Positions 2,144 through 2,485 of a stretch of 16,570 nt of DNA are shown here, one piece after another. The position numbers and the translations under genes were made by a program. The stretch lies in contig CAKZMS010000536.1 of NCBI GenBank assembly GCA_937128785.1, positions 1-16,570 of the forward strand, read 5' to 3'. Under the pieces are notes generated by a model that ran no database searches, was not told the DNA's origin, and saw only the letters and a program-made list of their open reading frames with translations. Every line of letters starts with the position of its first letter. Position 1 is the first letter of the stretch. The DNA is from an uncultured Opitutaceae bacterium (GTDB taxonomy: Bacteria; Verrucomicrobiota; Verrucomicrobiia; Opitutales; Opitutaceae).

Positions 2144-2485
2144 GCCTGCAAATCAAAGCCTTTCCGTTGCATGCCGGCAATTGCAAATGTGACGCAAAAA
2201 GGAGCGACGGTGGATCTCCCGGATCCAGCTGCGCCAGGGCTACGGCGCACATGGAAGGGGGGGATTGGCGGTCCTTCGGACCGGTGCTTCGCACTCACGG
2301 CTTCGCCGGGCCCCTTCTCCTTTCACTTCGTTTCAGTCGTCGTCTACGAGCGCAGCGAGTGGCCTGACACCCTGAGGGTGTCCGATGTCGCACTGCGTGC
2401 TCGGGACTCATCCCCCCGCCACGATTCCTCGCCGTGTTTACCCGAGCCAAATCCAAACTCCGAAATCGTAATTCGTAATTTGAAA
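2144..2485. other. Gene-free spacer between the TPR gene and tRNA-Ser
   Basis: About 340 bases carry no credible gene. Open frames here are short, and those crossing the tRNA translate it into the well-known spurious GGDSNPR-type and GGRVVECARLESG-type peptides. The middle part (about 2270-2400) holds the cluster of triloop inverted repeats annotated separately. The part next to the tRNA (about 2440-2485) is AT-richer and has a near-direct repeat, CGTAATTCGTAATT. No clear promoter was found. Confidence 0.6.
2270..2400. repeat. Cluster of short perfect inverted repeats with 3-nt centres
   Basis: Six short palindromes, each with a three-base centre, lie within 131 bp. GGTCC-TTC-GGACC is at 2270-2282, GTGC-TTC-GCAC at 2284-2294 and CGGC-TTC-GCCG at 2298-2308. 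AC-TTC-GT is at 2325-2331, GACACCC-TGA-GGGTGTC at 2366-2382 and GCAC-TGC-GTGC at 2390-2400. On the minus strand the second and third contain GCGAAGC, known as an exceptionally stable DNA mini-hairpin. There is no transposase or target-site duplication, so this looks like an intergenic repeat or structured element rather than an insertion sequence. Its function is unknown. Confidence 0.55.

Follow-up and report, generated by a model that had tools for sequence, protein, structure and literature searches.

A tRNA-linked family of multi-hairpin elements in the Opitutaceae that probably moves as a folded single strand

The locus beside tRNA-Ser(GGA)

The window analysed here is a stretch of 16,570 nucleotides from an uncultured member of the Opitutaceae (assembly GCA_937128785.1, contig CAKZMS010000536.1, positions 1 to 16,570). 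It contains a gene for tRNA-Ser(GGA), whose sense strand is the minus strand, and a structured element adjoins this gene on its 3' side. The parts are listed below from the tRNA outward; repeat centres are given as read on the plus strand.

2486..2575, minus strand: gene for tRNA-Ser (GGA) (ARAGORN; Rfam RF00005), T-arm GGGGGTTCGAATCCCCC
2418..2485, minus strand: F, the tRNA's own 3' flank, from CCA to the element (read in the sequence)
2410..2417, minus strand: left arm of P1, GGGGGGAT, then GAG; complement of the T-stem 3' strand
2390..2400, minus strand: extra triloop hairpin GCAC-GCA-GTGC of a variant left part (inverted-repeat scan; arms 4, centre TGC)
2366..2382, minus strand: P2-type hairpin GACACCC-TCA-GGGTGTC, a variant in which GGGTGTC replaces GGGTTCG (arms 7, centre TGA)
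2267..2340, minus strand: putative mobile core E, ACGACTGAAACGAAGTG...GGACCGCC, boundaries set by analogy with clean insertions
near 2326: sixth repeat ACTTCGT, arms 2 (read in the sequence; trivial alone)
2298..2308, minus strand: P4 hairpin of E, CGGC-GAA-GCCG, holding GCGAAGC (repeat scan and core model R2; arms 4, centre TTC)
2284..2294, minus strand: P5 hairpin of E, GTGC-GAA-GCAC, holding GCGAAGC (repeat scan and R2; arms 4, centre TTC)
2269..2283, minus strand: P6 hairpin of E, CGGTCC-GAA-GGACCG (repeat scan and R2; arms 6, centre TTC)
2255..2266, minus strand: right flank AATCCCCCCCTT (by-eye comparison with the tRNA 3' end)

A preliminary description had noted six triloop microhairpins here, two of them with a GCGAAGC core, and held that chance would not gather them in one spacer. 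The cluster itself is confirmed: five of the repeats have arms of at least four bases, the sixth is trivial, and d(GCGAAGC) lies inside the repeats at 2284-2294 and 2298-2308, in both cases on the minus strand. Five perfect triloop repeats with such arms in 2270-2400 compare with a mean of 0.59 in dinucleotide shuffles, and just 2 of 5000 shuffles reach five in 131 bp. The argument from chance holds to this extent and is blunted in two other respects. The cluster is not unique, as 131-bp frames starting near 8351-8381 of the window also hold five triloops, and across 8351-8510 triloop repeats are as numerous per 131 bp as in 2270-2400. In addition, the fold energy of 2240-2425 is ordinary (z -0.76 for DNA and -0.91 for RNA on the minus strand, -1.35 for DNA on the plus strand). 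The cluster is persuasive through its relatives, not through its own fold energy. The GCGAAGC mini-hairpin is described as melting near 78 degrees and as nuclease resistant, the general form of such DNA mini-hairpins being a GNA loop with at least two G-C pairs (PMC4686876).

The core model R2 recognizes E in the window (match 2264-2332, E-value 1.1e-10). The variant left part with its extra triloop hairpin recurs at two other loci (L005 and L007), and a stretch GTG(T/A)CAGGCCACTC is common to L002, L004 and L085. In the right flank, the first 11 bases correspond by eye to the 3' half of tRNA-Ser from the T-loop on, after which the sequence diverges; relatives have fuller right ends, and in many of them F reappears after the last unit. 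The window copy is a single, ageing unit. The copying of tRNA 3' ends, clean insertion (mostly at CG^A) and sites outside tRNA genes lay beyond the preliminary description, as they become visible only with relatives.

A structured repeat family tied to tRNA genes

Besides the window copy, BLASTN recovered three partial ones from the same genome, of which two lie 3' of tRNA-Pro and tRNA-Leu, and copies in 7 of 57 genomes, its own counted. A model of the unit, R1, matches 8 times in G000, 17 times in G001 and 19 times in G007, and has matches in at least 85 of the 200 genomes of the family Opitutaceae. Across the phylum, R1 matches at E-values up to 1e-5 occur in 26 of 387 genomes, 24 of which belong to the order Opitutales and two, both borderline, lie outside it. 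In the core model R2 the outer pair of P4 occupies columns 23-41, the core covariation count given below having used 24-40; R2 yielded 87 matches in 10 genomes and at least 161 in 20 further genomes. An exact core pattern is found in 16 stretches of an 84,980-species collection, all titled Verrucomicrobiota, one of them Akkermansiaceae.

A relaxed pattern gave seven matches in viral contigs, one of which (L289) is by eye the element beside a tRNA-Gln-like 3' end. The matches L290 and L293-L295 were rejected as copies of E, being another repeat with a similar stretch. That repeat carries GAATCCCGACGGAGCGnAGCGnAGACGGGATGCCCCGCC, its ATCCC could pair with GGGAT, the upstream region is similar in L290, L293, L294 and L295, and it is perhaps a phage RNA element.

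Relatives reveal the anatomy of the complete unit, which on the sense strand follows the CCA of the tRNA and comprises F, the left arm of P1, GAG, P2, the core E and then AATCC through the acceptor strand to a second CCA. The left arm of P1 is complementary to the T-stem 3' strand. In P2, the complement of the T-stem 5' strand comes first, then the 5' strand itself and then TTCG. At most tRNAs, E is part of such units; since each of them ends in a copy of its own tRNA's 3' end, the tRNA stays intact. In G007 tRNA-Ser(GGA) is followed by an array repeating in tandem about every 180 bp, its units ending in copies, some of them altered, of that tRNA's 3' end with CCA.

The link to tRNA genes is specific. 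A census of 119 tRNA contexts in three genomes, in which a copy was taken to be the same tRNA's last 17 bases with at most 3 mismatches, found downstream sense-strand copies in 19 (the raw count was 21, two of which are a tRNA cluster, L091, and were excluded) and no antisense copies of these 17 bases. The tRNAs concerned are those for Phe, Met, His, Asn, Pro, Arg, Leu, Ser, Cys, Tyr and Gly, and remnants without a right end accompany Tyr and Glu in G007 and Glu-CTC in all three census genomes. A same-strand tRNA lies upstream at 64 of the 71 best-match R1 loci; the other seven comprise three near contig edges and four resembling the far ends of T-arm islands. Among 81 matches with a tRNA, the own tRNA's 17 bases before CCA are present with at most 3 mismatches in 63, and the right end is closer to the own tRNA than to any other tail compared in 74, spanning 18 tRNA types, in a comparison that drew on 92 of 107 matches. 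Likewise, the longest pairing of units with a tRNA tail averages 6.97 bases for the own tRNA versus 5.71 for others, L091 and stretches over 260 nt being left out.

The fold is maintained by double changes. An alignment of 23 units contains 29 pairs with 85.8% of cells paired, and double-sided changes are seen in 22 of the 29. Covariation amounts to 0.443 for the units, compared with 0.162 in shuffled alignments and at most 0.110 when slid, and to 0.553 versus 0.168 shuffled for the core only; P1 is among the covarying helices. The proposal of a dispersed structured repeat family, for which the preliminary description had asked for more than about ten intergenic copies with compensatory changes in the arms, is thus borne out: more than 10 copies exist, they are tied to tRNA genes and double changes keep their arms paired.

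Template switching also yields double changes, and would account for those seen if tRNA 3' ends were simply duplicated in tandem and quasipalindrome correction at replication kept the arms complementary, with no mobility involved. The units are indeed tandem and locus-specific. Over the cores of 59 loci, moreover, similarity is highest for the same tRNA in the same genus (0.312), and cores within one genome (0.122) are no more alike than those of other genera (0.156-0.164). As cores follow tRNA and genus and not genome, most copies look old and inherited rather than freshly moved, and recent bursts within one genome were not seen. Nevertheless, an account without mobility is very improbable, as the unpaired frame is conserved across units of many tRNA types and clean insertions can be set against empty copies of a transposase gene and a repeat hairpin.

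Loop statistics identify the folded strand and point to the type of polymer. In 36 units, which include tandem copies and come from 28 tRNA genes, hairpins with arms of at least four bases comprise 100 triloops versus 23 in shuffles and 51 tetraloops versus 22, the shuffles keeping base composition alone. On the sense strand 49 triloops are GNA and 7 TNC, and because GNA outnumbers TNC the tRNA-sense strand is the folded strand; a C-G pair closes 96 of the 100 triloops. RNA elements are expected to favour GNRA and UNCG loops, which account for 3 and 0 of the 51 tetraloops. The hairpins of E are mainly C-GNA-G or C-NNN-G triloops lacking the tetraloop signature of RNA, which suggests a DNA-type fold.

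These figures bear on the idea that the units, like the rtT repeats of tyrT, are transcribed behind the tRNA as a structured RNA trailer that serves in regulation or processing. The arrangement would suit such a trailer: the units lie behind tRNAs in the same orientation and close with tRNA 3' ends, double changes maintain their fold, and a strict scan places a terminator between tRNA and first unit in just 5 of 29 cases. However, those terminators precede Phe, Asn, Cys, Tyr and one Glu unit, the family is patchily distributed among genomes, and the same core occurs in ORFs and inside tRNA T-loops. In the window, tRNA is the sole Rfam match at gathering score, and at six unit-bearing loci tRNA alone lies above gathering, other families giving a few sub-threshold matches there; none fits, and Rfam families were rejected as the identity of the element. 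Given the loop counts and the sites outside tRNAs, the RNA trailer was dropped as first choice and is considered improbable. The preliminary description had weighed an RNA-level structure next to tRNA-Ser against a single-stranded DNA structure used in replication or transfer. The loop statistics make the former the weaker of the two and favour the latter as far as the DNA is concerned, the role in replication or transfer having found no support.

Insertion sites and interrupted tRNA genes

Copies outside the units disclose E as a discrete insert. In one copy of a Mutator-type transposase gene of G192, the core forms a clean insertion of 60 bp that keeps the frame, at GCCG^AGAGCG; this site is empty in six copies (three in G192, three in G026 and G179). 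A repeat hairpin of G059, CCGGCGTATCATCG^AGTAGCCGG, is empty in one copy and filled in two. Overall, E ranges from 60 bp, as in the transposase gene, to 79 bp. Two RT copies of G020 hold a 70-nt core, a length which is not a multiple of three and whose exact ends are uncertain, and homologues in G003 and G192, 72-78% identical to them, are empty. A tRNA array of G099 has the core in one T-loop and, by eye, a relative in a D-loop, and in G001 one core is antisense in a T-loop. The left flank ends in CG (AG or TG in a few) and the right flank begins with A: the target is short and not fixed, mostly CG^A with a few cases of AG^A or TG^A. No target duplication was seen at these insertions in the transposase gene, the RT copies, the repeat hairpin and the tRNA loops. 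In units, the bases that come after the insert follow the tRNA where its loop reads TTCGATT (ATTC in 4 of 4); for TTCGAGT tRNAs they are AGTC in 2 of 6, the remaining four having the common AATC. Comparison of filled and empty sites thus indicates that E is mobile.

Other inserts were encountered as well. On the minus strand near G020:C1:3552700 (L246), a different hairpin insert of ~45 bp (TTCCGAGGCCGTAGGCC...CCGGAAC) interrupts one of two RT copies with no visible target duplication. Arrays of odd tRNA genes occur at L211 (G099:C12:823200-825200), L091 (G001:C1:5716426-5719950) and L105 (G007:C34); in L211 and L091 many T-loops are of kinds such as TGCGAAT or TGCAAAT, and some T- or D-loops are interrupted by hairpin inserts.

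Three tRNA genes carry E inside the T-loop with no intact copy within the 1.3-1.4 kb piece at hand: tRNA-Pro(CGG) in G004, tRNA-Gly(CCC) in G005, which looks partly worn, and tRNA-Leu(CAG) in G174. Decayed genes for tRNA-Leu(TAA) and tRNA-Arg(CCT) are interrupted by E in the same way, and in each case an intact gene and a unit follow. A rescued arrangement is seen at the Pro(CGG) locus of G007, where F, P1, P2 and an E come after an intact tRNA; the E here and the one in G004 are the same in 62 of 79 columns. The interrupted genes come from a set of 53 extra loci with 64 classified matches, one overlapping opposite-strand match being left out. Of these matches, 37 have a tRNA upstream, 3 have a copy of a tRNA 3' end, 2 lie at contig edges and 22 show neither, a proportion that overstates odd contexts as these loci mostly lie outside the family-wide R1 matches listed. 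By eye, three of the 22 (L348, L361 and L364) stand in non-tRNA sequence, and in another fourteen the left flank is T-arm-like or variant.

The tRNA-Pro(CGG) and tRNA-Leu(CAG) genes with E at TTCG^A are well formed in other respects, and E might be a T-loop intron removed from the RNA, the interrupted genes being functional. C34 anticodon tRNAs can be replaced by a U34 tRNA under the wobble rules, and as all three lone interrupted tRNAs (n=3) have C34 anticodons, they fit inactivation rather than splicing. These tRNAs should be dispensable, and the insertion would inactivate them. The interrupted Leu-TAA and Arg-CCT copies have decayed, each with an intact gene behind it, and E also resides in an ORF and a repeat hairpin, so that an intron is the most improbable of the readings considered.

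The hairpin cluster of the window is instead probably a variant, partly eroded copy of E, a non-autonomous mobile element that would move as a folded single strand. On the tRNA-sense strand E folds into short hairpins, three or four in number and typically closed by C-GNA-G triloops, set in a conserved unpaired frame ACGnAG...GGAGAtGGGGC...CC. It inserts cleanly, mostly between CG and A and often in a hairpin loop such as those of the repeat hairpin and of T-loops, its commonest home being the T-loop TTCG^AAT of tRNA genes. Insertion inside a tRNA should destroy that tRNA. Elsewhere E survives in B+E units, B denoting the tRNA's own 3' half plus flank, with an intact tRNA in front, and the units multiply in tandem, presumably by recombination. 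We infer both the movement of the folded strand by a trans-acting enzyme and the manner in which B arose. Several observations count against this reading, among them the similarity pattern of the cores, the short and variable target, the bases after the insert in TTCGAGT tRNAs and the distribution of Y1_Tnp genes given below. The T-stem 5' strand in units fits the own tRNA only moderately, at 3.56 of 5 bases compared with 2.67 for other tRNAs, and is identical in 8 of 68. The reverse complement of the T-arm inside B is a further point against it.

A bolder version is conceivable, though we hold it only tentatively. The whole B+E might be a self-healing cassette, a single-strand transposon of 110-210 bp which would cut the T-loop of one particular tRNA gene at TTCG^A and at once rebuild that tRNA, its cargo being the 3' half, CCA and flank and its ends held by a P1+P2 fold that imitates the T-arm. 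If true, it would be a transposon with stem-loop target choice and a cargo that repairs the gene entered.

Candidate enzymes and the nearest known systems

By analogy with REP elements, the first candidate for the mobilizing enzyme would be an HUH/Y1 transposase. Genes of the Y1_Tnp type (PF01797) are present in 39 of 42 genomes, with 21 of 22 high-copy and 18 of 20 copy-free genomes among them, and G074 has 7 copies of E and no Y1_Tnp gene. RAYT as a proven mobilizer was dropped, its presence being non-discriminating and G074 a carrier without the gene; no transposase gene was found linked to E.

The units could also be site-specific cassettes, in which a tyrosine (integron-like) or serine recombinase would join a T-arm with a T-arm mimic and cause tandem 3' accretion. 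When P1+P2 is folded, a core resembling a T-arm is restored; unit-bearing tRNAs seem to be integration sites of islands (L165/L212; by eye L175, L202 and L204), and an integron integrase above the TIGR02249 cut-off occurs in 15 of 22 high-copy versus 7 of 20 copy-free genomes. Insertion into the ssrA T-loop by islands with a serine recombinase is described in Dehalococcoides (PMC3146451). Such cassettes are nonetheless doubtful, as the transposase, RT and repeat-hairpin sites share little with a T-arm beyond CG^A, seven of the 22 high-copy genomes lack an integron integrase above the cut-off and attC core motifs were not noticed by eye in units. With only a weak excess in carriers, the integron integrase was set aside as mobilizer.

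Islands and recombinases at these loci merit separate mention. At L165 a tRNA-Gln with an integrase gene beside it lies 9.5 kb upstream, which bears out an island in the T-arm; this tRNA-Gln and the phage-integrase gene adjoining it are in L212, the unit array being displaced to the far end of the island; by eye, T-arm islands at unit-array tRNAs are likely at L175, L202 and L204 too, with the arrays pushed to the far end. Six equal-scoring genes on G001:C1 (e.g. 26620-27477 and 4901911-4902768), with open frames of 335 aa and weakly integron-integrase-like, are probably a repeated recombinase element.

If movement as a folded strand is correct, E would rank among the smaller mobile DNAs for which clean pairs of empty and filled sites exist, and few loops in biology are as conserved as its main target, the tRNA T-loop. 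The states seen, from interrupted and rescued tRNAs to tandem arrays and the copy in an ORF, would form a natural series from which the outcome of hitting essential versus dispensable genes can be read. With candidate substrate, target and empty sites in hand, E would also offer a direct test of how REP-like elements without their own transposase move. Tandem repeats of ~178 bp, each with the tRNA 3' end, stand behind tyrT in Escherichia coli (rtT). The units resemble them in both respects; they differ in that many tRNA types share one mobile core, and there is no Rfam RtT match. Elements of the IS200/IS605 family insert without target duplication, as does E in the empty and filled pairs, and subterminal hairpins and the use of one strand are further likenesses; unlike in that family, no tetranucleotide target is seen for E and no linked transposase gene was found. 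IS200/IS605 elements operate by a guide-sequence mechanism (PMC8266576).

Islands in the ssrA T-loop of Dehalococcoides (PMC3146451) and islands that leave partial tRNA genes behind (PMC9897764) are similar to E in that T-loop insertion leaves the RNA gene whole and in their tandem 3'-end direct repeats. They are kilobase-sized, many with a recombinase gene, whereas E has 60-79 bp and codes for nothing; the units, at 113-212 bp, have no room for an integrase between tRNA and 3'-end copy, two longer stretches of 377 and 399 spanning more than one unit. Tagged REPs of the CGTC type and Rickettsia palindromic elements have stems of 8-9 bp, loops of 4-5 bases and a CGTC tag (PMC3733652). Like E, they also occur inside ORFs, have a CCA-like tail at one end and are not known to have a dedicated transposase. 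E departs from them in its mainly triloop, multi-hairpin build with 4-6 bp stems and its CG^A target, so that only the CCA-like end (CC^A) agrees. No tRNA-linked elements of Opitutales were among the best literature matches listed, in a search covering few subscription journals.

The nearest known mechanism, by analogy, would be that of REP and IS200/IS605 elements (PMC8266576, PMC3733652), because E has hairpins, one strand, targets in hairpin loops and no target duplication. REP and REPIN sequences are described as short palindromic non-autonomous DNA, GTAG-tagged, mobilized by RAYT (TnpA_REP) and recognized as single-stranded hairpins on one strand only (PMC8266576, PMC3733652); insertion inside palindromes is reported, and the verrucomicrobial O. 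terrae is called highly enriched in GTAG repeats (PMC3733652). In being short, palindromic, non-autonomous and confined to one strand, E is alike. The ends of E lack a GTAG tag; a GTAG does occur in units of the window type, within their variant left part. A REP is a single palindrome of 20-40 bp with GTAG, whereas E comprises 60-79 bp with three to four hairpins and ends ACG...CC; unlike REP and REPIN sequences, E mainly targets the tRNA T-loop and its units carry the tRNA 3' end. Our best reading is that E would represent a new, T-loop-seeking variant of the REP-like non-autonomous elements.
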